Source: a virus. Taken from it: 37,809 bases of DNA. Of the stretch, positions 2,198 through 29,053 are shown in pieces. The position numbers were made by a program, and so were the translations under genes. Within the stretch, counting starts at the first letter, position 1; each line of letters begins with the position of its first letter. The stretch lies in IMG/VR virus record IMGVR_UViG_3300032050_000364, positions 1-37,809 of that record. One strand, given 5' to 3'. The notes under the pieces were generated by a model that was given only the letters and a program-made list of their open reading frames with translations, was not told where the DNA came from and searched no databases.

Positions 2198-5100
2198 ATG
2201 TCAAATTCTTATAGGATAAGAACAACACCTGGGGTAGATAAATCAATTAAAGTATTAATAGACCAAGAATTTGAGTATCTTGAGATATTATCTCTTAAAA
2301 TATTAAAAGACCAAATCTACACAAGACAGTGCTCAGATTATGGTGTGGTTATTGGTCGTATTAGCGTTAATAATGGTCTTGGAATTCCTAATGCGAAGTT
2401 ATCTGTTTTTATTCCTTTAAGCGAAGAGGATTCAACAAATCCAATAATATCAGAAATTTACCCATATAAAACTGTTACAGACCAAAATGAAGATGGGTAT
2501 AGATATAATTTATTACCATATATACCATCATATAACGGACACGTACCTACAGGAACATTTTTTGAAAGGGATGATGTTATTTTAGACCAAACATTAATTG
2601 AAGTTTATGACAAATATTATAAGTACACCACAACAACTAATGATAGTGGTGACTTTATGATATTCGGTGTTCCCACTGGTGAACAAACTATTTTTGTTGA
2701 TATTGATTTGTCCGATATTGGTGAGTTTTCTCTATCACCAAAAGATTTAATAGACATGGGGGTTACTACTGAGGCAATGGTTGATGGATTTAATTTTAAA
2801 GCGTCAACCAATTTAAATTCACTACCTCAGATAGTTTCATTTTCACGAAACATTCAAGTAGAGCCATTATGGGGGGAGCCTGAAATATGTAATATAGGTA
2901 TAACTAGAACTGATTTTGATATAACTAGGGAAACTAATGTACAAATAACACCATCGGCTATTTTTATGGGTTCAGTAATTTCTGATGTTGATATGTCCGC
3001 AATTAAAACGGGGTGTAAAGTTAATAAAAAAATGGGGAATCAATGTTCTCTAATAACAGGTCCTGGTCAAATTAAAAGTATCAGACAAACGATTAATGTT
3101 GATAATCAGGGTAGACCTTTATTAGAGGAATTTGAATTAGAAAATGGTGGTCAAGTTATAGACGAAAATGGTGCTTGGGTTGTGAACGTACCAATGAATC
3201 TTAATTATGTTACAACAAATGAATTTGGTGAACAAGTATTATCTGACGATGTGAATGTAGGTGTACCTACTAAAGGAAAATATAGATTTAAAGTTAAATA
3301 TAATCAGCCACCATCCTTAGACGTTTCAATAAAAAGAGGGTATTTTTTAGTACCTAATATACGAGAATACGGGTGGACAAGTTATATTACAACACCAAAC
3401 GCCTCGGATGTCCAAAGGTCATACGCATTTACCACAAATTGGGATGATTACGGAGATAATATGACAGCATTTGGTCAACAAATGATTAATGATGCGATTA
3501 ATTGTGAGGATAAGTTTTATGAGATGAGGTATAATAAAGTATATACCGTATCAAGTCATATAACTGAATATAGAAAAGGTAAATCTAAAAAACGATTTAT
3601 AGCTATTAAACAAATAACTGACGATAAATGTGATTCGGAGGTAGTTAGATTTCCAACCAATGACGCTCAATATGACCCTAATGCTAATTTTACATTATAC
3701 TCAATTATGATGGGGTTTTTATTACCATTTATGTTGATTATGTTAATTGTAATGCATGTTTTAGCGTTTATTGCTTGTTTTGTACTAGCTATTATTGCAA
3801 CAGTTTTTGTTGTTATTGGTGGTATTATCTATCTAATTGGGTTGGCTATTGGTTTAATACCAGGTGCTGGTGATTTTGCTGATAAAATAAAGAATGCTGG
3901 AAATGCTTTGATTGAAGCGGGTAATTCCTTGGGTGATTTATGTTATTCATTTAAAATGAGATTTTGTCTTTTAACTTATCCTGATTGTGAACGTTGTGAT
4001 AAAAATCCTGACGTTAGTTCAGAGCCATCAACACCACCCTCAAATCCTACGGTAGATTCTCTTAATGAGACTAATGCTGGTTTAGGTAGTGCAGGTGTTC
4101 TTAGTAGTTTTTATGATGCGGGTCAATATAATTGTAATTCTCCTTATGAAAATAAAACTGGCCAAATTTTGGCAGGACTTTCAGATACCTCAATTACAAA
4201 TAAATCACAAGGGTTAATTAATTTAGTTACTATACCACCATCATACTTATTTAGTTCAAGTTTAACTTTGGCGAATAGAATGAATTTATTTAATACTAAG
4301 GGTAAATATTTTGACCCAACGATATCACCAGGTGGAGGGGTTAATCAAATTAAAGTAACCTTTGATACTAATATCAATAACCCCAACACTACTTGGCATT
4401 TAGATAATGTGGTTTGTTTAGTTGTAGATGATAAAAACATCAGCAAGTTCCAAGTAGGAAAAGTATTAACATTTAATAACCCTACAATATCTAATGACCC
4501 AAATTTAACGGGTTCAACTTTAAATATTTATAGTAATAATGCGATAACAGGAACAACGATAGGTACCCCTACAGCATTTTCAAATATTAATCAATATAAT
4601 AGAGTTGTTGAATACGCATCACCCTCAAACACTGGTAATTTATCGGTAACCTATACATTAACCGCATTTACTGAAGATGTGTTATATGCTAAATATCCTA
4701 TGGATATTGAGTATTTCCAAGTTTTACAAATAAAAAAAGTATCCAACTTTATTACGGATTCTACCAATTTATTACCTGATTCATTACCTGAACGTTTTAT
4801 TAAGAACCCTGCGTATTATTTAACAATTGATGATGATAATTGTATGATTCCCGATACTTTGTCACCTGTATCTTGTTATTCGGGGTATAATGAACAAAAT
4901 ATTATATTTTTAGTTAGAGGAGTTGACCCAAATACAACTAAAACAAAATGTAGATATGATTTAAGTAAACTTTATGGTTATTCGTCATTTGGAAATGCGA
5001 GTTCTATTGTTGAGGGTGACTTCTATCTTAATATACCAATACAAGGTAAATTAAGGAATGTTAAACACGATTCACCGTTGATTATATCTAATAGTTATGC

Positions 5101-7093
5101 AACCGACGCATACTCAGGACAAAAATTATTTTATGACTCTTACCAATTTTTACCTGGAGGACAGTTCAGTGCATTTACAAGTACGATGACTAAGTATTAT
5201 TCAAACCTTGATGAAGCGTCTCAACCATTAACACCAACAAACTCAACATTAATTTCACCTAATAATGGGTTAAGTGTTAATCCATTAAATGAAATGACTA
5301 AAGAATGGAATAACTCAACAATACTTGGACCATCTTGTACAGGGTTTACACCGACATTTAACTCATCAGTTGTTCAGAACAGAGGATACCTAATTAATGA
5401 ACAAGTTGAGGGTGGCTCACTACTTTATTTAGACGCTACAATCCCATTAATACCTGTGGCAAACCCAACATCAACCTCACAAGTATACTCAACAATATAC
5501 CCAACAACATTAACAACTAGTTTTACATTAGGACCATCTGGTAGACAGATGGTTATGAGGTCTGACAGATTACCCTCTTCTACAACAACTCAAAGTAATT
5601 TAACAAATCAATATGTTCTTTTTGAAAATGGTAGTTTGGTTGTTTATGGTTTTGATTCTGGTGGTGTGTTAACCACTTTTGATATTACTAATTCACTATA
5701 TACTGATGGTGGTGGTCAAGATTTATCTGATGATGGGTGGGGTAATATTGTTGGTAATGATATTTTAGGTTCTTTTGAATGTGAAAATATGGTTCCTTTA
5801 GGTTGTTATAGTGAGAGTGATGGTCAAATAACCATAGCACCTCCTGGTGATAATTGTTATACCACATTAGGGCAACCAACTATGGAAGATGGTTGTTATG
5901 TTTTCCTTAGAACACCTTTGCTTTCATTACCTATAGATTTATTTTATATGGTTGAATGGTTTGCTAGAAATACAACTATGTATGGTGTATGTCAAAACGT
6001 ATTTGGTCATGTATTCACAAACAATTGGGTGAATGGTGTTTTATATCACTTCCCGTTTAAAAATAATACATTTTTTGATAATAATAATGACCCATACGCT
6101 GTTTATTGTACTGATGTAATATACTTAGACCAAACTAATAATAATTTCTTTTATAGAAGTGCACCATACACTTACACTAATAAGTTTATAGGTAGAGAGG
6201 CACCTGACTATAATGAATACAAAGGTAACGTTGTTAATATGATGTTCCCTACCACAATTATGGATTTAGGACCTAAACAAAAATATTTACAAGAAGTATC
6301 AATTACAAATGAGTATGACGGTTATATTTTAAATAGATTATCACCCACAACATTTAATGATATTAGCGATTTATTAACTTTGTTAGTTGTAGCTAGATTA
6401 GTTAATACACTTAATTTTGGTGGTGTATTGTCTTATTTTAAAAGGGATAATGATTTTGTTGACGGTGATTATGCTCAATTAATAGCCACTAACTCTCAGT
6501 TTGGGGTGTATCCGTTTGAACAAGGGTATTATGGTGGTAATGATATTTATTCATATTCTCAAATTTTTGGAGTTAATAATGTTATTGGTGTGTTCTTTAA
6601 ATCTAATTTGCAGGCTAGAGATTATATCACACCTAAAAGAAATATTTATTCGGGTATAGGTCCTTTTAGTACAATAAATTGTGCTCTTGAAGACATTCCT
6701 GTTTTTAGTCAAAGAGTACCATTCTACATGTGGTCTATTGCGAATAAACCAACAATATTTGGAGGACAAATAAATAATTGGGATACCAATTTAAATTTTT
6801 CAACTGAATTATTTTCTCACAGATATCAAGACTTAGATAGATTATTACAATCGTCTAGATATTTTAGACCTAATAATTTTAACCAAACTGATTATTTTAA
6901 AGGATATATATATGCGGTGAATTCTTCAGGTAACATTGACGCTGATGTCTCTTATTGGTACAAACCAACGGCACCTCAACAATCAATTTTAATGGGAGCT
7001 CCTTTTTATTTTTATTTTGGTTTAAGACAAGGTAGAACGGCCTTTGATAAATTTGCAGAATCTTGGGTAGATTTTGATGATATAACATATTAA
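2198..7093 (+). CDS. Large putative baseplate/tail protein with internal hydrophobic segment
   Basis: A 1631-residue protein of unrecognised overall family, placed directly after the gp6-like gene, so probably a baseplate or tail-periphery component. Residues about 45-180 resemble a carboxypeptidase-regulatory-like beta-sandwich: G-x-I-S-V-N-N-G-L-G-I-P-N-A near the start, and T-x-N-D-S-G-D-F-M-I-F-G-V-P-T-G later, with an insertion between. Residues about 500-557 are strongly hydrophobic (for example MMGFLLPFMLIMLIVM, then FVLAIIATVFVVIGGIIYLI). A Gly/Ala-rich amphipathic stretch and a Cys cluster (CLLTYPDCERC) follow. The rest is Ser/Thr/Asn/Tyr-rich and beta-type, as in virion proteins. 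A transmembrane-type block inside a tail protein is unusual. The gene ends in a TAATG overlap with the next gene, suggesting coupled translation. The structural role is inferred from context; no enzyme motif was seen. Confidence 0.7.
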   Translation: MSNSYRIRTTPGVDKSIKVLIDQEFEYLEILSLKILKDQIYTRQCSDYGVVIGRISVNNGLGIPNAKLSVFIPLSEEDSTNPIISEIYPYKTVTDQNEDGYRYNLLPYIPSYNGHVPTGTFFERDDVILDQTLIEVYDKYYKYTTTTNDSGDFMIFGVPTGEQTIFVDIDLSDIGEFSLSPKDLIDMGVTTEAMVDGFNFKASTNLNSLPQIVSFSRNIQVEPLWGEPEICNIGITRTDFDITRETNVQITPSAIFMGSVISDVDMSAIKTGCKVNKKMGNQCSLITGPGQIKSIRQTINVDNQGRPLLEEFELENGGQVIDENGAWVVNVPMNLNYVTTNEFGEQVLSDDVNVGVPTKGKYRFKVKYNQPPSLDVSIKRGYFLVPNIREYGWTSYITTPNASDVQRSYAFTTNWDDYGDNMTAFGQQMINDAINCEDKFYEMRYNKVYTVSSHITEYRKGKSKKRFIAIKQITDDKCDSEVVRFPTNDAQYDPNANFTLYSIMMGFLLPFMLIMLIVMHVLAFIACFVLAIIATVFVVIGGIIYLIGLAIGLIPGAGDFADKIKNAGNALIEAGNSLGDLCYSFKMRFCLLTYPDCERCDKNPDVSSEPSTPPSNPTVDSLNETNAGLGSAGVLSSFYDAGQYNCNSPYENKTGQILAGLSDTSITNKSQGLINLVTIPPSYLFSSSLTLANRMNLFNTKGKYFDPTISPGGGVNQIKVTFDTNINNPNTTWHLDNVVCLVVDDKNISKFQVGKVLTFNNPTISNDPNLTGSTLNIYSNNAITGTTIGTPTAFSNINQYNRVVEYASPSNTGNLSVTYTLTAFTEDVLYAKYPMDIEYFQVLQIKKVSNFITDSTNLLPDSLPERFIKNPAYYLTIDDDNCMIPDTLSPVSCYSGYNEQNIIFLVRGVDPNTTKTKCRYDLSKLYGYSSFGNASSIVEGDFYLNIPIQGKLRNVKHDSPLIISNSYATDAYSGQKLFYDSYQFLPGGQFSAFTSTMTKYYSNLDEASQPLTPTNSTLISPNNGLSVNPLNEMTKEWNNSTILGPSCTGFTPTFNSSVVQNRGYLINEQVEGGSLLYLDATIPLIPVANPTSTSQVYSTIYPTTLTTSFTLGPSGRQMVMRSDRLPSSTTTQSNLTNQYVLFENGSLVVYGFDSGGVLTTFDITNSLYTDGGGQDLSDDGWGNIVGNDILGSFECENMVPLGCYSESDGQITIAPPGDNCYTTLGQPTMEDGCYVFLRTPLLSLPIDLFYMVEWFARNTTMYGVCQNVFGHVFTNNWVNGVLYHFPFKNNTFFDNNNDPYAVYCTDVIYLDQTNNNFFYRSAPYTYTNKFIGREAPDYNEYKGNVVNMMFPTTIMDLGPKQKYLQEVSITNEYDGYILNRLSPTTFNDISDLLTLLVVARLVNTLNFGGVLSYFKRDNDFVDGDYAQLIATNSQFGVYPFEQGYYGGNDIYSYSQIFGVNNVIGVFFKSNLQARDYITPKRNIYSGIGPFSTINCALEDIPVFSQRVPFYMWSIANKPTIFGGQINNWDTNLNFSTELFSHRYQDLDRLLQSSRYFRPNNFNQTDYFKGYIYAVNSSGNIDADVSYWYKPTAPQQSILMGAPFYFYFGLRQGRTAFDKFAESWVDFDDITY

Positions 7094-8904
7094 TGAGTAG
7101 TAGAATAGAAGATAGAGTAGTATTGGGGTCTTTAAGGTACAAGTCAGCACCTAATAGCAACTTATTATTTCAAGTACCGTTAGTACAGACGGTTAAAGAA
7201 AATATTGAATTTGATAGAACTATCAATTTTGATTTACAACAGTTATATGATGACGAAAGACAAAGGTCAACAATATTCAGACCTATCGCTAAATTATCAT
7301 TATTGTTTGATAACAAATATTCTGGTGTTACATCATATTATCCATATAAATCATCATTGTATTATGAAAATGTACAATCATTAGTTACGAATATTTGTAC
7401 ATTAAGCTCAATAAGTCTTTATTCGGGATATCCTCAATATTATGAATTTGATTTTATGAGGATTGATAATGATATCTCAGGTTATACTTCTCCTGATGTT
7501 ACCAATAACATACATAAATTTTTTATTAATAAAAGTGCTGACACATATAATTGGTCCATTAACATGAGTTATGCGTATGATAACATTAAAAATAAACAAA
7601 TGTCCGCATTTGATAAAGATTCTAACACTACTTTAAATTGGGTGGCATCTGATGGAATACCATTTGTTGTTTATAGAACCATGGACCAAAATCAGACAGT
7701 TATTTCATTTAGGTGCCCTATAACTCACGGACTTTCAGTTGGGGAATATGTTAAATTAAGTATTGATTATTTAGGTCAAGATACGTTCCAAGTATATTCG
7801 TTAGGTGACCCATACTATGGGACTGATGAATATATTTTTAATATTTATGATATTGGATTTACAGGTACCACATTTGTAAGTGGTGTGACGGGTACTTTTA
7901 AAAGAATAATTGATATTAATAATAGTGGTGATACTATTTCGGAATATTATGTTAGAAGACATAAAATTTTAACTGAAAGTGATGATTTAGTATTAGGTAA
8001 ATCAGGATTTGAGCAACAGATATTTAAACAACAAAAAAAGAATGAAAGGGCAACCTATACACCAAATAAACAAAGTAGAATATCATTAAAAAATGGTAAT
8101 ACTGTGTATACGGCCTCATTTAATGAAGACATTGACATTTCATCATTAAGAGATAATCAAAATAGACCCTTAAGTGAATTATTTTACACTATAGTGTGGA
8201 AAGGTTATATGGGTTGGACTTTTGGTTTGTTAAGACCTGGTGGTGGTTATTATGGATTAAAACAAGGATGGGAATTTAATATACAACCATTAAGTACCAA
8301 CCCTAACGCACCTAATAATTGGTGGGCTAATTCTAACACGAATTCAGATGCGGGATTTTCGGTTTTAAATTATACAACTACATTAGGAATACCTGGAAAA
8401 CCATTTACATATATAAGACCAGTACAAAAGGGAGATATAGTTTTAGGAGATTACTGTGAGTGGAATAACTCGGAACAAACTGAAAGAGTTATTTCTGATT
8501 TATATCATAAATTTAGGTTTAATCCTTATTATTTTAATATTGGACTAACTCCTGACTCAAACCCATTTGGTGATAATTGTCGTGGTTACTATTATAAGCC
8601 ACACTATCCTTTAAAAATAAGGGCGTTCTCTAATTATCTTGAAGAAGCTGATAGCCAAAATGTTGTAGGTATACCTGATTATGCTTATTACTCTACGACA
8701 GTTAACCAATTTATTTGGAGGGATTTATACCCATATGGGTTTATTGACACTGAAAATGTTGGGGTTAATTATCCATATTTAAATAACGCCCACTACCCAT
8801 ATAGAGATATTATTTTCAGATTAATTAGTGAAGGGGATACTTATGATTATGGGATAACAAATAATACCGTAGTTGCGGAACCAACTGTTGACGATTGTGA
8901 ATAA
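7093..8904 (+). CDS. Putative tail/baseplate structural protein, unknown family
   Basis: A 603-residue protein starting at the ATG of a TAATG overlap with the preceding gene. I do not recognise the family. It begins MSSRIEDRVVLGSLRYKSAP and is rich in Tyr, Asn, Ser and aromatic residues, with no signal peptide, membrane segment or catalytic motif. A central stretch (about residues 365-405) has many Trp, Gly and Tyr residues (WKGYMGWTFGLLRPGGGYYG). This composition and its position between baseplate-type genes favour a virion protein, such as a baseplate or fibre-attachment component. The last bases overlap the next gene's likely GTG start. The function is inferred from context only. Confidence 0.7.
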   Translation: MSSRIEDRVVLGSLRYKSAPNSNLLFQVPLVQTVKENIEFDRTINFDLQQLYDDERQRSTIFRPIAKLSLLFDNKYSGVTSYYPYKSSLYYENVQSLVTNICTLSSISLYSGYPQYYEFDFMRIDNDISGYTSPDVTNNIHKFFINKSADTYNWSINMSYAYDNIKNKQMSAFDKDSNTTLNWVASDGIPFVVYRTMDQNQTVISFRCPITHGLSVGEYVKLSIDYLGQDTFQVYSLGDPYYGTDEYIFNIYDIGFTGTTFVSGVTGTFKRIIDINNSGDTISEYYVRRHKILTESDDLVLGKSGFEQQIFKQQKKNERATYTPNKQSRISLKNGNTVYTASFNEDIDISSLRDNQNRPLSELFYTIVWKGYMGWTFGLLRPGGGYYGLKQGWEFNIQPLSTNPNAPNNWWANSNTNSDAGFSVLNYTTTLGIPGKPFTYIRPVQKGDIVLGDYCEWNNSEQTERVISDLYHKFRFNPYYFNIGLTPDSNPFGDNCRGYYYKPHYPLKIRAFSNYLEEADSQNVVGIPDYAYYSTTVNQFIWRDLYPYGFIDTENVGVNYPYLNNAHYPYRDIIFRLISEGDTYDYGITNNTVVAEPTVDDCE

Positions 8905-14800: not shown

Positions 14801-15179
14801 ACAACAATTTAGTGGTGTTTTGGCTTATTTATTAAATCAATATTTGACCGCCAACGGTTATACATTAAATGATTGTTTAATAAATTCATTAAACTCAAGT
14901 TGGTTTGTTGATATTAGAATAAATGATGTGGTAATTGTTCAAACACCATTCTTTAATGGGGTGGGATTAACAGTACCTAATATTAGTTATCCGACTACAA
15001 CTACGGCTTGGTTATCAGGATTAACTGATTCATTAGAATCTTTAAAAATCTATGGATATGATTATTATTTTACAACTGAAGATACTGTTGTTGTATTTAA
15101 TAATATTTGTTCTGAAGATGATGATGGTGTTAATTTAAAAATTAATGTCGGAATAAATTTTAATATATTATGTAATTAA
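11823..15179 (+). CDS. Large putative baseplate/tail protein with Cys cluster
   Basis: An 1118-residue protein. Residues about 430-480 contain NLVLNSAYLFKSKGTRKSIE followed by TLLTLIGAPEALVEFNEYVY. This resembles the helical 'L...G..YRSKGT..AI..LL...G' region of phage tail protein I and related baseplate proteins, a tentative match. The N-terminal part is mixed alpha/beta. A beta-rich, Gly/Ser/Thr segment spans about residues 715-820. The segment ending near residue 955 has W-rich text (NTGVKYENSIFHRQKFVWRR). A Cys cluster follows at about residues 953-982, with the pattern C-x6-C-x2-C ... DCP ... ECP, perhaps disulfide- or metal-bonded. It is flanked by TAATG overlaps on both sides, so it is translated with its neighbours. 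A baseplate or tail-fibre connector role is inferred. Confidence 0.7.
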   Translation: MAIKKYTCPPQKASGAGTFSDELVGFQLVQGGGLTQGNFEFTTSVTEKVNRNFNTGVFSNPINLEGLGVNSIDESKALFENNFKVYPNFDLSQITNFTLYGSMVKRMSVSVEKIINYFPGAIESNFLGKDYTTGPSATNIIYNPQFDETSFDLSISKISNPFGVDFSVNATRNMELNEVEVSELRNMTTQYGKYSLYLNDNGYSVKRIVSTTSLTSGILTIVVEGNPFSGESTTNQTLIIRPNDLEVNKVLNESLDEVEDFLLNRNVNPKYTATFKIPKVGDDGTYYTEYQNLTWPLLGKWNLDIITGAFTNYLNKLNEVSISFDEYKTNLISRFLTTGAFNEFDTIGRKVEKVLQIYGRSFDETKKFIDALAYINSVNYNVGNDIPSQLLKNLAQTLGWRTNISPISNEELLNSVFGQKNTDKSAFSGVDSVMTPDELNYQYYRNLVLNSAYLFKSKGTRKSIETLLTLIGAPEALVEFNEYVYLADQKINMTQFDSYYAQISGGTYVQNTPALDPSYLYSIMGVTYTGFTTQVTLQDVNIGREEYPIDDNGFPSAPEDTEDYFFQIGSGWFEQTPQHRALEQVDLTNSVFTGSNPNYQTVLEPYSYGQVYLNRFREFPFMDIGFRLRPTIDNNKSWTDREIGLRSNLDGNYNARYFTSDDKLVLNVKNVDLFLNPAQGIAYDIWYMSRQYNFPIPNEGLNYVPQISQFYSISSIYQPGSVDITYSASTIIPPLFDITFNFTNVLGTISGDVSVTTGITISAGSTTGVTNVILPDDYSGLTLTSTFTNINANPSEISYGLSVVPSFISGTSETVLPTQFYTVSPINIYPNKGGIDWTEINPQPKIQTFFEFAQTFWTNTINVRDRQFNSTRTGGYPTLGSIFWRYLESEGRIGVKNDNFSYKTMIEYVNGLGDYWIRLVEQMIPATTIWNTGVKYENSIFHRQKFVWRRQRGCEIIPVPCKPCELTTNIFPVDCPVQSTECPVYPWDTNPQIQQFSGVLAYLLNQYLTANGYTLNDCLINSLNSSWFVDIRINDVVIVQTPFFNGVGLTVPNISYPTTTTAWLSGLTDSLESLKIYGYDYYFTTEDTVVVFNNICSEDDDGVNLKINVGINFNILCN

Positions 15180-16879
15180 TGTCTTGTCCTTTATCATATA
15201 GTTTAAATATAACAGGTGATTGTTCTAATATAAATGTTGGGACTTTTGAACTTAGTATTCTTGGTACGGCACCTGATTATACAATACAATGGATTAGTCC
15301 TGCATCTTATGGTACAATTGCTTTAGGACCTGGGGTTACAACATATAGTGAGAGTGGATTATCTGCCGCGACTTACACATTTAATATTATAGATAGTTGT
15401 GAACCTAATACAGTAGTTCCTGTTAATGTTTATATATCAAGTGGGACTTGTGTATCTATTGAATCGTTTGAAGATACTTTATGTGGTGAGAATAATGGTT
15501 CTTTAAGTGCTGTTACAAGTGGGTATTATGGGACAGCAACTTTTTCATTGTATGATTCTGTTTATGGTTTTATAATGTCAGCATCAACCGCTGGTAATTC
15601 TTATCAGTTTACTAATTTATCCGCAAGTACATATTATGTAATTGCTAATGATGGTGGTGGTTGTACAGGTCAAAGTGAATCTGTTATAATTAAAGACTCA
15701 AGTACCATAGATTTTGGTTTTTATGTTGTTAATGATGCGGGATGTGCGGTTAATTCAGGTAAAATATTTATAACAGGGTTAACGGGTAATCCTCCGTACA
15801 CTTATTTATGGTCTAATGGTCAAACAACATCAAGTATTAGTGGATTAACCGCAGGGTTTTATAATGTTACGGTAACTGATAGTACAGGGTGTGCGGTTAA
15901 TAAAGTAACTTCAGTTTCAGAAGTACCTAGTGTAGGTATTGCGTCTATTTTAACAACAGACCCATCTTGTTATTCTTCGGATGGTGAAATTACTGTTATT
16001 GTTACGGGCGGTACTTCACCGTATAACTTCTCCGCCTCAACATTAGGTAATTACTTTACATTTGACACTGAATACACATTTACTAATGTATCTAGTGGGA
16101 ATTATAGTATATTAGTGACTGATGCGGGACTTTGTACTACAAGTGCAACAATAACGGTCACAACTCCAGGAGGATTTTCGGTTGTATCGTTTTCGTATTC
16201 TCCAACGGTATGTGGGGCATCTGGATATGTCACGATAGTATTGAATGGAGGGTCACCACCTTACAACTACACTTTAAGTGAAACAGGTGGGCCAACTACA
16301 ACGCAAACAACAAATAGTTCAACTTGGACCTTTAATAATTTATTCTACGGTGAATATACTTTAACAATATCTGACGATGGTCCTTGTGAATATAGTAATA
16401 CCTTCACAATTGAGAATGATAATGCGTTTATTTTGTCAACAAGTGTTACAGGTACTACTTGTGGTGATGATAATGGGATAATAACTGTTGAAGTTTCAGG
16501 AGGAACACCTTCTTACACATATACTTTAGATGGTAGTGAAATTGTTATTAGTCCTTTAAGTTCGGTAACTTTTACTAATCTAACATCAGGATTACATAGT
16601 ATAAATGTTGTGGATGATAATGGGTGTACCCAAACAATATCGGCAAATGTGGCAACATCAAGTGATGTTGATTTTATTTTAGTACCGACCGATGCTTTAG
16701 GGGGTAATAATGGTTCAGTAACAGCGTTAATAACTAGTGGAGAACCACCATTCACATTAACTTGGAGCCCAAACGCTAGCGGACAAACAGGGTCAACTAT
16801 AACGGGGTTAAGTGCTGGAACCTACTCATTGACTGTTGTTGATGACAATGGGTGTGAGTCAACTACGGAAGTTATAGTT
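15179..16879 (+). repeat. Tandem SprB-like protein repeats (about 7 units)
   Basis: Degenerate repeats of about 210-235 bases each. They are visible in the protein as recurring motifs: a Cys near the start, G-G-[ST]-x-P-Y in the middle, and V-x-D-x-x-G-C at the end. The units have diverged at the DNA level, so this is an old or selected expansion, not a recent one. Confidence 0.7.
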
Positions 16880-18055
16880 AATGGTAATGTTTTATTATCA
16901 TCTTATCAAGTTTATAGCGTTTGTGATTCTGACTTATTAAATTATGGTGAAATAATTTTAAAAGGACCTAAACAGATGTTACTTGATGGGTTTTATAGTT
17001 TAAGTTCGGGGGATACAAATTGTATTTTGAATCAGGCTATATTTGAAGCATCCGTTACAGTTAGCGGAGTTACCACAACCCAAACATTTTTTACGGGAGA
17101 AACTTTAAATGATTACCCAACTACCCAACAATGGAATGATGTTATTGGAAGTTTAATATTAGGGTATGATGGTATTGGTTCTGTTATTTTTGATATTGAA
17201 ACTAATCAAATGACTATTTTAACTGATTGTAATTCCGAAATTTCATTAAATGATGCTAATATTATAATTAATATGATAATTCATTACGATATTTCGTGTG
17301 TCGCTTGTTATTGTCCCGTACCTGAATTTACCCCTATTAATTGTGAAATAACTGAAGAGTATTGTGAAACCGAAGAAACTAAAGTAATCTATGATATTAA
17401 ATGGCCTTTATTTGGAATTGATTTATTAGACAATTTGGATATTATACCTACTAGATGTCAAGAGTTACCAAATTATCCTGATTGCGGTGTTATTGAGAGT
17501 AAACAAATTGAGTTTAGAAATGCTAGAAATGCCTATTTGTCTTATATAAATAATTATCTTTTAGCCCTTTCAGTGGGTAGAATTAGTTATGCCCAATCCA
17601 TTCCTGTTGTATTACCACCATCTAGATACGAGGGTGATTATTTTTACAATGGGCCTGAAAATGTTGGGTGGACGCAATTCAAGGTAATACAAGGATGTAG
17701 TTGTAAAAAAATATTTGAGGAAAATGGTTTAGTTGGGCCTCAATATGACTTTGATATCGTATGGTTAACTGAAGTCCAATCATATGGTGATTTACCATTA
17801 ACAGGTAATTTTGGTGAATTTTGTTTTGTTATAGACGATGGTGTTTTTTATAAATGGGACCCTAATACAAATACGTGGATTAATGAAAGTTCACCAATAA
17901 TAGGTTATCCTGATATTGAAGATTGTGCTGCGGTACAAAGAGCTCAAAGAGATTATTATCTTTTATCATTAAACCAACTTATGTTGGTTTGGAGGTCTTT
18001 TACTTGGTCGTCATTTCATATCCCATTATACCAAATTTTTAAATATAATAGTTAA
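15179..18055 (+). CDS. SprB-repeat fibre/adhesin protein
   Basis: A 958-residue protein. Residues about 1-567 are about seven degenerate Ig-like units of 70-80 residues. Each follows the SprB-repeat pattern: Cys, then N-G-x-I/V-x-V, then G-G-x-P-P/S-Y-x-Y, then L-x-A/S-G-x-Y-x-V/I-x-V-x-D-x-x-G-C. The clearest unit has GNPPYTYLWSNGQTTSSISG. SprB repeats are best known from the gliding-motility adhesin of Flavobacterium and from type IX-secreted proteins. The C-terminal 390 residues differ: a Cys-rich linker (CVACYCPVPEFTPINCEITE), a helical part and a final segment with YKWDPNTNTWINESS. The likely role is a host-contact fibre. It is preceded by a TAATG overlap and followed by a 168-aa gene 11 bases downstream. 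The SprB resemblance is seen in the sequence; the receptor-binding role is inferred. Confidence 0.75.
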   Translation: MSCPLSYSLNITGDCSNINVGTFELSILGTAPDYTIQWISPASYGTIALGPGVTTYSESGLSAATYTFNIIDSCEPNTVVPVNVYISSGTCVSIESFEDTLCGENNGSLSAVTSGYYGTATFSLYDSVYGFIMSASTAGNSYQFTNLSASTYYVIANDGGGCTGQSESVIIKDSSTIDFGFYVVNDAGCAVNSGKIFITGLTGNPPYTYLWSNGQTTSSISGLTAGFYNVTVTDSTGCAVNKVTSVSEVPSVGIASILTTDPSCYSSDGEITVIVTGGTSPYNFSASTLGNYFTFDTEYTFTNVSSGNYSILVTDAGLCTTSATITVTTPGGFSVVSFSYSPTVCGASGYVTIVLNGGSPPYNYTLSETGGPTTTQTTNSSTWTFNNLFYGEYTLTISDDGPCEYSNTFTIENDNAFILSTSVTGTTCGDDNGIITVEVSGGTPSYTYTLDGSEIVISPLSSVTFTNLTSGLHSINVVDDNGCTQTISANVATSSDVDFILVPTDALGGNNGSVTALITSGEPPFTLTWSPNASGQTGSTITGLSAGTYSLTVVDDNGCESTTEVIVNGNVLLSSYQVYSVCDSDLLNYGEIILKGPKQMLLDGFYSLSSGDTNCILNQAIFEASVTVSGVTTTQTFFTGETLNDYPTTQQWNDVIGSLILGYDGIGSVIFDIETNQMTILTDCNSEISLNDANIIINMIIHYDISCVACYCPVPEFTPINCEITEEYCETEETKVIYDIKWPLFGIDLLDNLDIIPTRCQELPNYPDCGVIESKQIEFRNARNAYLSYINNYLLALSVGRISYAQSIPVVLPPSRYEGDYFYNGPENVGWTQFKVIQGCSCKKIFEENGLVGPQYDFDIVWLTEVQSYGDLPLTGNFGEFCFVIDDGVFYKWDPNTNTWINESSPIIGYPDIEDCAAVQRAQRDYYLLSLNQLMLVWRSFTWSSFHIPLYQIFKYNS

Positions 18056-23564: not shown

Positions 23565-23804
23565 TTATACACTTTCAGTAAACCATTCTGGACCTGATAA
23601 AATAGTAATCATTTCTGAGTTATTATACGGACCTTCCATATAACTTAAATCAATAAGAAATGTAGGGTCAGTTTCCGATTGCCATCTTATAAAAGTTTTA
23701 GTACCGTCAATACTAAATCCCAATTCAGAAATACTTCTTTCTAAAATTTGATTAAAATCAACTTTGCTAAGTTCTGATGTTAAAATAATTAAATACTTTC
23801 TCAT
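23565..23804 (-). CDS. Hypothetical 79-aa protein
   Basis: A small, mixed-charge protein ([20 protein letters not shown] at the N-terminus) with no recognised family. It is supported by an ATGA overlap with the end of the giant repeat gene (its ATG is at 23804-23802; that gene's TGA is at 23803-23801), implying translational coupling. It has no signal peptide, membrane segment or Cys motif. It may act with the giant protein, for example in assembly, but this is unproven. It is the last gene of the minus-strand cassette. Confidence 0.5.
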   Translation of the reverse strand: MRKYLIILTSELSKVDFNQILERSISELGFSIDGTKTFIRWQSETDPTFLIDLSYMEGPYNNSEMITILSGPEWFTESV

Positions 23805-26800
23805 AAACCAAATCTATCTTTTTCTGAATTAAAATTATTGGTGACCTCAGTAGAGCTTAATTCTCTGTTATATATTCTAATAATAGCGATATAACCTTGG
23901 AAATATTCTTGAGGCGAACCTGCTTGGAACCTACCAACCCGTAAACTAGAAACGTTTGTAACTGTCCCAAAAGGGTCCCCATTACTACCAACTGAAGTAC
24001 CGTTAAGATATAAATTACCACCACTTGGGCCGTGTGTTGCAACAACGTGAGCCCATGTATTTGCGGTTAATACTGTTGGTGATGATGTATAATTAATTGC
24101 CGAACCATCAGCAATAAAATTAATATTTCCCGATGTATTAATTCTCAATCTATAACCGTTATTACTATCTTTTGAAATTATATTAGGGCTATTAGTAAAC
24201 CCTGTTGGTCTAATAAACGCCTCAACAGTACAACCCGTTGATAATTGTATTGATGCGTTATTACCATCTAACCCATCATCACCAGCACCATCAAAAAGTA
24301 AACTACCATAAACTTGAGGTATATTTGGAAAATACGTAACACCCGAACTTAAGACGGTATCGTTATTATTTGTTGTTAAATCAAGTAAATTGGTACTCCC
24401 TGAATAAGAATTTTCATTACCCGCATCATACCATAAAACTAATCCTGACTGAGTTAGATTACAACTTGGACAACACCCCACGGCTGTTACAGACCCAGCA
24501 CCTGAACGGGATGGGGTAGTACTGGAACATACATATACAGGACTCTGAAAATTATTTATAATAATTGGTGATGTTGCGGCCTCATCACAACAAGGGGTAA
24601 ATGTAAATGTTGTATTCGCAGGAAATGAGTTTGACACCAATTCATACTGAAGACAACTACAAGTTGGTGTTGGTGTTGGTGTTCTTGTTGGAGTAACGGT
24701 TCTTGTAGGTGTATTTGTTGGTGTTCTTGTTGGAGTAAGAGTTCTTGTTGGTGTATTAGTAGGTGTTCTTGTTGGAGTAACGGTTCTTGTAGGTGTATTG
24801 GATGGTGTTCTTGTTGGAGTAACGGTTCTTGTAGGTGTGTTGGTAGGTGTGTTGGTAGGTGTATTTGTTGGTGTTACAGTATTAGTTGGGGTATTAGTTG
24901 AAGTTCTTGTAGGTGTATTTGTTGGTGTTCTTGTTGGAGTAACGGTTCTTGTAGGTGTATTTGTTGAGGTATTGGTTGGTGTAACGGTTCTTGTAGGTGT
25001 ATTTGTTGGTGTATTTGTTGAGGTATTGGTTGGTGTGTTAGTAGGTGTCCTTGTAGGTGTTACAGTATTAGTTGGGGTATTAGTTGAAGTTCTTGTAGGT
25101 GTGTTGGTTGGAGTATTTGTTGGAGTAACGGTTCTTGTAGGTGTATTTGTTGAGGTATTGGTTGGTGTAACGGTTCTTGTAGGTGTATTTGTTGAGGTAT
25201 TGGTTGGTGTGTTAGTAGGTGTCCTTGTAGGTGTTACAGTATTAGTAGGTGTCCTTGTAGGTGTTGCAGTATTAGTAGGTGTTTGAGTGTTACTTGGTGT
25301 TGGTGTAGGAGTTACATCATCAGTACAGATTATTAAAGTTGCGCTTGATAACGTACCAGCATCTACTACCGCAAAATCTTGGATATATAATGACCAAGTA
25401 CCATTTGAATTTGGTGGTTGTATTCCGTCAAATACAGTAAACTCAGGTGAGTTACCAGGAGCCACCAAAGGAGGTACTGGACAAGGGGCACTAAACGTCA
25501 TTGAGTTTTGTATTGTAGAGTTATTACCAAATGTACCTGAACTAAATCCATTCCAATCAGGCGTTGAGAAAGACGTTAATGTAACTGTTACATTAGTTGC
25601 GGTTGTAACACCACCTATTCTACCCGCAATTAATGAATAAGTTGAATTATCAGGTGCAACTAAAACCATCCCAACGTCCCCAACCGCATTGTGAGAATAA
25701 CCACTAAGTACAAATTTAACATCTGTAATTGGTGTAACTAAACCTGATACTGTAAAAGTTATAGGGTATACTGATGCGGTTGTATTATCGTTAATTATAA
25801 TATTTGTCTGATTTGAAGGGAATGAAAAACAGAATTGTGAAGGGGTTTCAGTTAATGTAGGTGTGTTTGTAGGTGTTGATGTTCTTGTAGGTGTATTTGT
25901 AGGTGTTGATGTCCTTGTAGGTGTGTTTGTTGATGTCCTTGTAGGTGTTGATGTCCTTGTAGGTGTGTTTGTTATAGTGTTAGTAGGTGTTTGGGTAGGT
26001 GTTTGGGTAGGAGTTGGTGTATTAGTTGGTGTTCTTGTTGGCGTCACCGTATTGGTCGGGGTGTTAGTTGAGGTTCTTGTCGGAGTGTTAGTTGGTGTAG
26101 ATGTTCTTGTAGGTGTATTAGTCGGAGTATTTGTATTAGTCGGAGTATTAGTCGGAGTATTAGTTGGTGTTGGTGTTGGAGTTGGTGTTGGACATATACC
26201 TCCAGAACAAAATCCACCTATAGTGAATTCTAATTTAGGACTACTAACAATAGGATTACTACCACAAACTCTAAATGAATCATTACCTGGATTTGTAACA
26301 CCTGTAACGGTAACATTTGAACAATCAACATAACTATATGTGATAAAACCCTCTATTGTTGTATCTAAAAAGTCAATACAATTACATGGGTATTGAGTTG
26401 GTGTTGGTGTTACAGTATTAGTTGAAGTGTTAGTTGGTGTCTGAGTATTTGTTTGAGTTGGTGTCTGAGTACTTGTTTGAGTTGGTGTTACAGTATTTGT
26501 AGGGGTATTAGTTGGTGTATTCGTTGCGGTTCTTGTAGGGGTATTAGTTGGTGTGGATGTTCTTGTAGGGGTATTCGTTGAGGTATTCGTAGGAGTGTTA
26601 GTAGGAGTGTTAGTAGGAGTGTTAGTAGGAGTAACGGTATTTGTTGGTGTATTCGTTGCGGTATTTGTTGGTGTATTTGTTGAGGTGTTAGTAGGTGTAA
26701 CAGTATTTGTTATCGTGTTTGTTGGCGTATTAGTTGGTGTATTTGTCGGTGTTATAGTGTTAGTAGGAGTATTAGTTGAGGTATTCGTTGGAGTATTAGT

Positions 26801-29053
26801 AGGTGTAACAGTTCTTGTTGGTGTGTTAGTCGGAGTTTGAGTTGAAGTAATAGTTGGAGTTACGGTATTTGTAGGAGTGTTTGTTGGTGTCTGAGTTAAT
26901 GTGTTCGTTGGTGTTAAAGTATTAGTCGGTGTATTGGTTGGAGTTTGTGTTATTGTACCTGTAGGTGTAATTGTGTTTGTAGGTGTGTTCGTAGGGGTTT
27001 GAGTAATAGTGTTGGTTGGTGTTAAAGTATTTGTAGGTGTATTTGTAGGGGTGATAGTAGATGTTACAGTATTTGTAGGTGTATTGGTTGGTGTTTGAGT
27101 TGATGTATTAGTAGGTGTTATAGTGTTAGTAGGTGTAACAGTTCTTGTTGGAGTATTAGTAGGTGTGTTAGTCGGAGTTTGAGTGGAAGTATTAGTTGGC
27201 GTTACAGTATTCGTTGGAGTATTTGTAGGTGTGTTGGTCGGAGTTTGGGTTGAAGTGTTTGTTGGGGTTACAGTATTAGTTGGAGTATTCGTTGGTGTGT
27301 TAGTTGCAGTTCTTGTTGGTGTAACGGTATTCGTTGGAGTATTTGTTGATGTGTTCGTAGGTGTTTGAGTTGATGTGTTTGTTGGGGTAATAGTATTTGT
27401 CGGCGTATTAGTTGGTGTATTTGTTGATGTGTTTGTAGGTGTATTTGTTGGAGTACCTGTGTTAGTGGACGTATTAGTCGGAGTTTGTGTTGAAGTTATT
27501 GTCGGTGTAACAGTATTTGTAGGTGTATTTGTTGGAGTTTGAGTTGAAGTATTAGTTGGTGTGACAGTATTCGTAGGTGTATTAGTTGGTGTTTGAGTGG
27601 GGGTCTCAGTATTAGTTGGGGTTATCGTGTTAGTTGGCGTTTGAGTAGGTGTTTCAGTATTAGTTGGGGTTATGGTATTAGTTGGCGTTTGAGTAGGTGT
27701 CTCTGTGTTTGTTGGTGTGATTGTGTTTGTCGGTGTGACTGTGTTAGTTGGTGTTTGAGTAGGTGTTTCAGTGTTAGTTGGAGTAATAGTGTTAGTTGGG
27801 GTAATAGTGTTAGTTGGTGTTATTGTGTTCGTAGGGGTGTTCGTGGGAGTTTCAGTGTTAGTTGGTGTTATTGTGTTCGTAGGGGTGTTCGTAGGGGTCT
27901 CAGTATTGGTTGGTGTTATTGTGTTCGTAGGGGTGTTCGTAGGGGTCTCAGTATTGGTTGGTGTTATTGTGTTAGTCGGCGTTTGAGTAGGGGTCTCAGT
28001 ATTGGTTGGGGTTATCGTGTTAGTTGGGGTAGGTGTAGGAGTTTCAGTGTTAGTTGGTGTTATTGTATTTGTTGGGGTGTTCGTAGGGGTCTCAGTATTG
28101 GTTGGTGTTAATGTGTTCGTTGGAGTGTTCGTTGGAGTTTCAGTATTAGTTGGGGTAATGGTATTAGTTGGGGTATTAGTAGGTGTTTCAGTCGGAGTTG
28201 GGGTAATGGTATTAGTTGGCGTTTGAGTAGGTGTTTCAGTATTAGTTGGAGTTATTGTATTAGTTGGTGTAATTGTGTTAGTCGGTGTTTGAGTAGGAGT
28301 CTCAGTATTAGTAGGTGTTAATGTATTCGTAGGTGTGTTCGTAGGGGTCTCAGTATTGGTTGGTGTTATTGTGTTAGTCGGTGTTTGAGTAGGAGTTTCA
28401 GTAGGTGTATTCGTCGGAGTTTCAGTAGGTGTGTTCGTTGGTGTTTCAGTAGGTGTATTTGTTGCAGTTTTTGTTGGTGTGTTCGTCGGAGTTTCAGTTG
28501 GTGTGTTAGTTGGTGTTTCAGTTGGAGTGTTAGTTGGCGTCTCAGTTGGAGTGTTAGTAGGGGTCTCAGTTGGTGTATTTGTTGCAGTTTTTGTTGGGGT
28601 GTTAGTAGGTGTTTCAGTTGGGGTGTTAGTAGGTGTTTCAGTTGGGGTGTTAGTAGGTGTTTCAGTTGGGGTGTTAGTAGGTGTTTCAGTTGGGGTGTTA
28701 GTTGGAGTTTCAGTTGGGGTGTTAGTTGGAGTTTCAGTTGGGGTGTTAGTTGGTGTTGGAGTTGAAGTTGGAGTCGGTGTTGGAGTCGGTGTTGGAGTTG
28801 GGGTTGGGGTTGGGGTCGTAATTAGTGATATACAATAAACAATTTCAAATCGTTCACAACCATCATTTGTTATAATTTTAATACCAACTGCAGGTGCGCT
28901 ATCAAATTGACTGGGTAATAAAAATGTTGTACTTGGAGGTACTAAAGTATTAATTGTTGCAATTAGAACACATTGATTACCAAATACGTCACAAACGTAA
29001 ATCTGATATGGGTTTGGTAAACCTGATATGTTACTTATTTCAATTGAAGTCAT
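23801..29053 (-). CDS. Giant mucin-like Pro/Thr-repeat protein with P-domain-like and LamG-like modules
   Basis: A 1750-residue protein; about 65% of it is PT-repeat. Layout: N-terminal beta domain (residues 1-79), paralogous to the 71-aa protein upstream; repeat block 1 (about 80-885); a Cys-containing insert (about 886-953, PCNCIDF...CSGGICP); block 2 (about 954-1064); a P-domain-like beta-sandwich (about 1065-1245, ending [10 protein letters not shown] and [13 protein letters not shown]); block 3 (about 1246-1463); a Cys-rich module (about 1464-1535); and a LamG/concanavalin-like domain (about 1536-1750, [38 protein letters not shown]). PT blocks suggest an extended, possibly O-glycosylated stalk, and LamG and P-like folds often bind glycans. 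No signal peptide is visible. A long phage adhesin or surface fibre is the best inference. Confidence 0.75.
24663..25300 (-). repeat. Pro/Thr-repeat block 3 (coding)
   Basis: A PT array of about 215 residues, rich in Arg ([10 protein letters not shown]), linking the P-domain-like module to the C-terminal Cys-rich and LamG-like domains. It is the most basic of the three arrays. Confidence 0.85.
25860..26193 (-). repeat. Pro/Thr-repeat block 2 (coding)
   Basis: A shorter PT array, about 111 residues. It has frequent Arg in place of Asn or Glu ([10 protein letters not shown]). It joins the Cys-containing insert to the P-domain-like module. Confidence 0.85.
26398..28815 (-). repeat. Pro/Thr-repeat block 1 (coding, about 2.4 kb)
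   Basis: The minus strand encodes T-P-T-N/E/Q-type units; on the plus strand the DNA appears as G/T-rich units such as GTTGGTGT. Sub-arrays are visible: T-P-T-E-T-P-T-N near the N-terminal end, [11 protein letters not shown] in the middle, and [13 protein letters not shown] further on. Units are multiples of 3 bases, so copy-number changes keep frame. Confidence 0.9.
28794..28815 (+). other. Potential G-quadruplex in the repeat gene's template strand
   Basis: The plus strand has GGGG at 28800-28803, 28806-28809 and 28812-28815, spaced by TT, with a GG at 28794-28795. This could form a four-tier or mixed G-quadruplex. It lies in the template strand at the start of PT block 1, just after the N-terminal domain coding. 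It may be a by-product of Pro/Thr codons. Confidence 0.4.

Follow-up and report, generated by a model that had tools for sequence, protein, structure and literature searches.

The stretch of viral DNA analysed here (IMG/VR record IMGVR_UViG_3300032050_000364, positions 1 to 37,809, hereafter the window) encodes, directly downstream of a gp6-type baseplate wedge gene, a 1631-aa protein with an internal block hydrophobic enough for a lipid bilayer. The question raised by this locus is whether such a block, in a protein of the baseplate region, touches the host membrane or remains buried within the particle.

Hydrophobic block in the 1631-aa protein

The initial annotation of this DNA, made from the sequence alone, had described residues about 500-557 of the protein as almost wholly hydrophobic, possibly spanning a membrane twice or more and followed by a Gly/Ala amphipathic stretch, and that description stands. 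Positions 3690-3900 correspond to residues 498-568, and residues 498-558 are devoid of D, E, K, R, N and Q, with H520 the sole strongly polar residue. The 19-residue Kyte-Doolittle mean peaks at 3.15 (residue 522). This value exceeds the threshold for integral membrane proteins (hydropathy above 1.6 over 19 residues or more) and is reached by none of 1000 shuffled versions of the protein (median maximum 1.83, 99th percentile 2.56, highest 2.98). The minimum summed Hessa value for the block is -4.9, the block could cross a membrane twice, and residues 558-584 are amphipathic, with a hydrophobic moment of 0.48. Of the 27 window ORFs checked, none apart from that of the 1631-aa protein has a segment that counts as membrane-grade on both scales used, and the second-highest hydropathy is 1.71. 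The protein has no match in PHROG, PDB or cultured-phage records, and a Pfam search returned solely a sub-threshold CarboxypepD_reg.

Table 1. Coordinates of the protein, its block, its neighbours and two compact homologues
Feature	Position	Strand	Basis or remark
1631-aa protein with hydrophobic block	2198..7093	+	ORF; T4 gp7 position, directly 3' of gp6
Long hydrophobic helix, residues 496-552	3683..3853	+	AlphaFold helix (two models), hydropathy, alignment
Return helix, residues 558-584	3869..3949	+	Gly/Ala-rich, amphipathic in window; AlphaFold, relatives
His520, sole strongly polar residue within hydrophobic run	3755..3757	+	Kept in 93/97 sequences
Invariant Cys478 just N-terminal of block	3629..3631	+	97/97 sequences
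Cys597-x-x-Cys600 C-terminal of block	3986..3997	+	Near-family alignment
gp6/J-type baseplate wedge protein, 612 aa	289..2127	+	PHROG 219 baseplate wedge, E 9e-22; Pfam Baseplate_J, E 3e-7
603-aa neighbour in T4 gp8 position	7093..8904	+	Relative also 3' of target elsewhere and 3' of two compact homologues
Compact homologue without block	L155:2870-5110		747 aa
Compact homologue without block	L158:10001-12184		728 aa

Gene neighbourhood and phage type

The gene order gp25-gp6-target recurs in related genomes, with gp6 and the target directly adjacent in G001, G008 and L157. In the 272-kb relative G002 the genes run in the order sheath, tube, hub, then a 581-aa candidate tape measure (helix-rich in appearance, judged by eye from the sequence), a 1637-aa protein, a 2307-aa hub/spike candidate, replication genes, gp25, gp6, a 308-aa ORF, the target and the gene in the gp8 position, and a distant 339-kb relative keeps the tail gene order. 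The intervening 308-aa ORF (G002:C1:124351-125277, L326) is absent from the window. The 603-aa downstream neighbour has no detectable match to T4 gp8, and the proteins neighbouring the target have no match to T4 gp8-gp12. Among eight related contigs of 149-412 kb, seven encode a contractile sheath and five a terminase, and the genomes are therefore those of contractile-tailed phages. With terminase encoded on related contigs, the idea of a stand-alone injection system was discarded.

Elsewhere in the window, a 958-aa protein (15179-18052, plus strand; likely tail-fibre position) contains SprB repeats (Pfam E 2e-22). Repeats of this kind occur in the gliding adhesins of Bacteroidota, and the protein hints at a Bacteroidota host. 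A ribosomal protein S21 gene is present in two long relatives (G001:C1:272389-272547 and G002:C1:27723-27878). Both also have sheath and terminase genes and in this recall the bS21-encoding Bacteroidetes myoviruses, which have sheath and baseplate genes and Bacteroidetes hosts according to the accessible text of PMC9723584. This likeness concerns the two relatives, not the window, and that text describes no such protein or hydrophobic block. Judging from gene content, a Bacteroidota host is likely for the window phage. On the minus strand, a 1750-aa protein (23801-29053) matches PHROG 15511 (unknown function) in four stretches, and the long ORFs that overlap it on the plus strand are probably shadow ORFs.

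Distribution of homologues

Homologues are abundant in IMG/VR, on contigs of up to 412 kb: window-type queries yielded at least 591 and at least 597 confirmed candidates and distant queries 161 and 226, the four candidate sets overlapping. In a bacterial genome collection four homologues were found, all in metagenome-assembled genomes, and a search of 50,697 cultured-phage records returned none. Among the matches listed, 263 distinct homologues are at least 700 aa long, and in 260 of these the block lies between residues 400 and 700. In four relatives (L125, L133, L136 and L144) a second membrane-grade segment occurs further downstream in the protein, at residues about 1053-1061.

The three homologues without the block are L155, L158 and L241 (753 aa, ending at a contig edge), in which the chain continues past the N-terminal core without a hydrophobic run. 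L155 and L158 adjoin a relative of the target's downstream neighbour, and L158 also lies near sheath and tube genes; a search for relatives with the compact L158 protein as query found none. These compact homologues identify the block as an accessory module, which appears, on sequence comparison, to be dispensable for the basic protein. Since two of them still stand beside related tail genes, the block is not a universal wedge core.

Variation of the block

Within the near family, comprising 97 nonredundant relatives of the window protein, block hydropathy is at least 2.0 in every member, yet identity to the window is 0.18 in the block versus 0.60 in the first 480 residues. The initial annotation had named homologues lacking hydrophobicity as half of what would overturn membrane insertion; hydrophobicity is conserved in the near relatives, and the block is present in nearly all listed homologues, so that half fails. 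Length varies as well, with 62 to 161 residues between D489 and C597, and the number of predicted membrane-grade segments per homologue varies, mostly from one to three. In a 42-sequence alignment, residues 496-529 are gap-free and indels gather at 532-534 and beyond, with a possible helix break at 530-534. Drift of the block with hydropathy kept is, as far as alignments can tell, what would be expected if selection acted on hydrophobicity and not on exact packing.

The same drift would also suit a hydrophobic insertion acting as a spacer or relic with no specific role, but the retention of the block across the listed homologues, the invariant flanking cysteines and the nearly invariant histidine make this highly improbable. 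C478, P486, C597 and C600 are invariant, H520 is retained in all but four near relatives, and position 602, the third cysteine of a CxxCxC motif, is Cys in 92 of the 97 and Lys in the window. Cys478 and the CxxCxC motif, flanking the block on either side, could form a metal site or a disulfide.

The long helix is not uniformly greasy. Polar positions 502, 506, 509, 520, 527 and 530 cluster along one face of the helix or close to it, and the 100-degree periodicity of polarity is significant by permutation (p about 0.0002; 0.0003 without H520). The residues of this stripe are mostly S, T, N, Q and H, with some K/R and little D/E. By inspection, a divergent clade has a similar polar alternation with an invariant Asn and Cys, and its helix has lower hydrophobicity and more Lys. 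The return helix is hydrophobic in some relatives and hydrophilic or missing in others (L021, L048). Mean net charge in the near family is -0.5 before the block and +0.4 after it, giving no clear flank bias. Two of these results go beyond the initial annotation, namely the accessory nature of the block, which compact homologues lack, and the narrow polar stripe that it bears family-wide.

Predicted structure

AlphaFold was run separately on residues 1-760 and 440-1631, both covering the region (450-620) for which the initial annotation had proposed structure prediction, and both models show residues 496-552 and 558-584 as the two helices of a confident hairpin, most of which scores above 85. 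For the first helix, pLDDT per ten-residue block is about 77-95 in the first model and 86-96 in the second. As modelled, this helix is a single unbroken one of 57 residues, about 85 A long, or more than twice the thickness of a bilayer. In the second model short strands occur at both ends of the hairpin, and outside the hairpin the target is mainly strand and loop. Foldseek with the residues 440-1631 model gave no significant fold match in PDB or the viral library, and against PDB neither model had gp7 or another wedge protein among the matches listed. Alpha pore-forming toxin components and four-helix bundles were rejected as relatives (E >1, long helices alone explaining the matches), as were the matches of the N-terminal model, which were strand-rich domains with low TM-scores.

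The models bear on two further explanations. The block could form a buried oligomerisation core, in which the long helices of several copies, perhaps together with gp6 or the hub, build a tall hydrophobic bundle within the baseplate that never meets lipid, with the polar stripe turned towards a central cavity or the solvent. An unbroken long helix with a return helix fits such a bundle, as does the less hydrophobic, Lys-richer helix of the divergent clade, and the accessible text of PMC10457771 describes how helix-turn-helix motifs of the wedge proteins gp6 and gp7 make up a helical core bundle. Low identity and variable length would nevertheless be unusual for a packed core, the compact homologues show that no universal wedge core is involved, and the hydropathy of all near relatives exceeds what burial needs.

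Alternatively, the block might anchor the protein in the host inner membrane late in infection, with baseplates assembling there and being freed at lysis. The hairpin ends running into short strands in the model would allow both ends to lie on the same side of a membrane, and very hydrophobic stretches of proteins synthesised in the cytoplasm tend to be membrane-inserted. Release, however, would require freeing a spanning segment from lipid, and no sequence evidence favours anchoring over delivery; an assembly anchor is considered quite unlikely.

Comparison with T4 gp7 and other systems

T4 gp7 is, like the target, large and encoded directly after gp6. The initial annotation had called such hydrophobic segments rare in virion tail proteins, and a survey of 27 T4 structural proteins agrees: gp7 alone passes clearly on both of the hydropathy scales, with gp29 a borderline case. 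The membrane-grade segment of gp7 has a hydropathy of 2.07 at residue 886 in record AF158101, and gp7 carries the GenBank note 'C-terminus is predicted integral membrane domain'. For this segment (residues 886-908; AF158101, L334), the accessible parts of the literature consulted give no role. T4 gp7 is present in several solved baseplate entries, so a membrane-grade segment can sit in the virion and does not in itself prove insertion. This precedent, together with a predicted helix that exceeds the bilayer, keeps the buried core a serious, if less likely, alternative.

The resemblance to gp7 has limits. The segment of gp7 is one short run near the C-terminus, whereas the target has a 61-residue block after its N-terminal third, and profile comparison of the two proteins gave no match (hhalign probability 0.4%). 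With no detectable homology, the target can be called an analogue of gp7 in gene position and hydropathy rather than an established member of its family. The wedge components Alg12, Afp12, Pvc12 and XM1 gp17 adjoin a gp6-like part as the target does but, in contrast to it, have no hydrophobic block described in the accessible text of PMC8894135 and PMC10457771, where gp7-like wedge components of contractile injection systems are presented as a hotspot of evolutionary change. Sequence and fold searches of PDB with the target had no gp7-like injection-system part among the matches listed.

Hydrophobic helices in a tail protein also recall tape measure proteins. Some of these have transmembrane segments, hydrophobic helices thought to aid DNA passage across the inner membrane. 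The target differs in that a separate 581-aa candidate without a membrane-grade segment lies upstream, and a tape measure identity was rejected; outside the hairpin the target is predicted to consist mainly of strand and loop, and its gene is located after gp6 and not beside the tube gene. In the tail regions of G001, G002 and G008, no other identified tail-module protein has a membrane-grade segment, the tape-measure candidate included.

A proposed membrane-interacting hairpin

The reading favoured here, at a probability of about 0.48, is that the block is a conserved accessory membrane-interacting helical hairpin of a baseplate wedge-region protein. Flanked by invariant cysteines, the hairpin would consist of a long, very hydrophobic helix, which bears the narrow, mostly uncharged polar stripe that holds H520, and a return helix that is shorter. 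It would most likely be shielded in the resting baseplate. On rearrangement of the baseplate at the surface of the host, its hydrophobic faces would enter the host membrane (probably the outer membrane, which lies within reach of the baseplate), and the inserted hairpins might hold the baseplate down or seal the hole round the tube. Should the copy number be six, as for gp7, the hairpins could together make up a ring. The sequence of the block, its conservation, the gene context, the predicted helices and the polar stripe are direct results of the analysis; from these we infer presence in the virion, the copy number of six, exposure on contraction, insertion and the choice of membrane.

Membrane interaction is slightly favoured over the buried core because hydrophobicity rather than sequence is kept, length varies freely and the stripe is mostly uncharged. 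Against insertion stand the unbroken predicted helix, with its excess over bilayer thickness, and the lack of a clear flank charge bias, and a return helix that is hydrophilic or missing in some relatives is hard to square with a simple two-span hairpin. A more specific arrangement, in which six long helices with the stripe turned inward (H520, or Asn in the divergent clade) form a hexameric pore or collar round the tail tube in the host membrane, is thought unlikely; if true, it would be a membrane channel from a wedge-region protein, not from a tape measure.

Implications

How the DNA of contractile phages passes through membranes after the tube punctures the envelope is an open question. 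The carriers of this block are abundant, uncultivated giant phages, and the existence of a conserved module alongside compact relatives without it offers a specific comparison by which to ask if baseplates come into contact with lipid. The finding further points to the membrane-grade segment in T4 gp7, a segment testable in a laboratory phage. If the favoured reading is true, the hairpin may let the phage tail grip or breach the host membrane.
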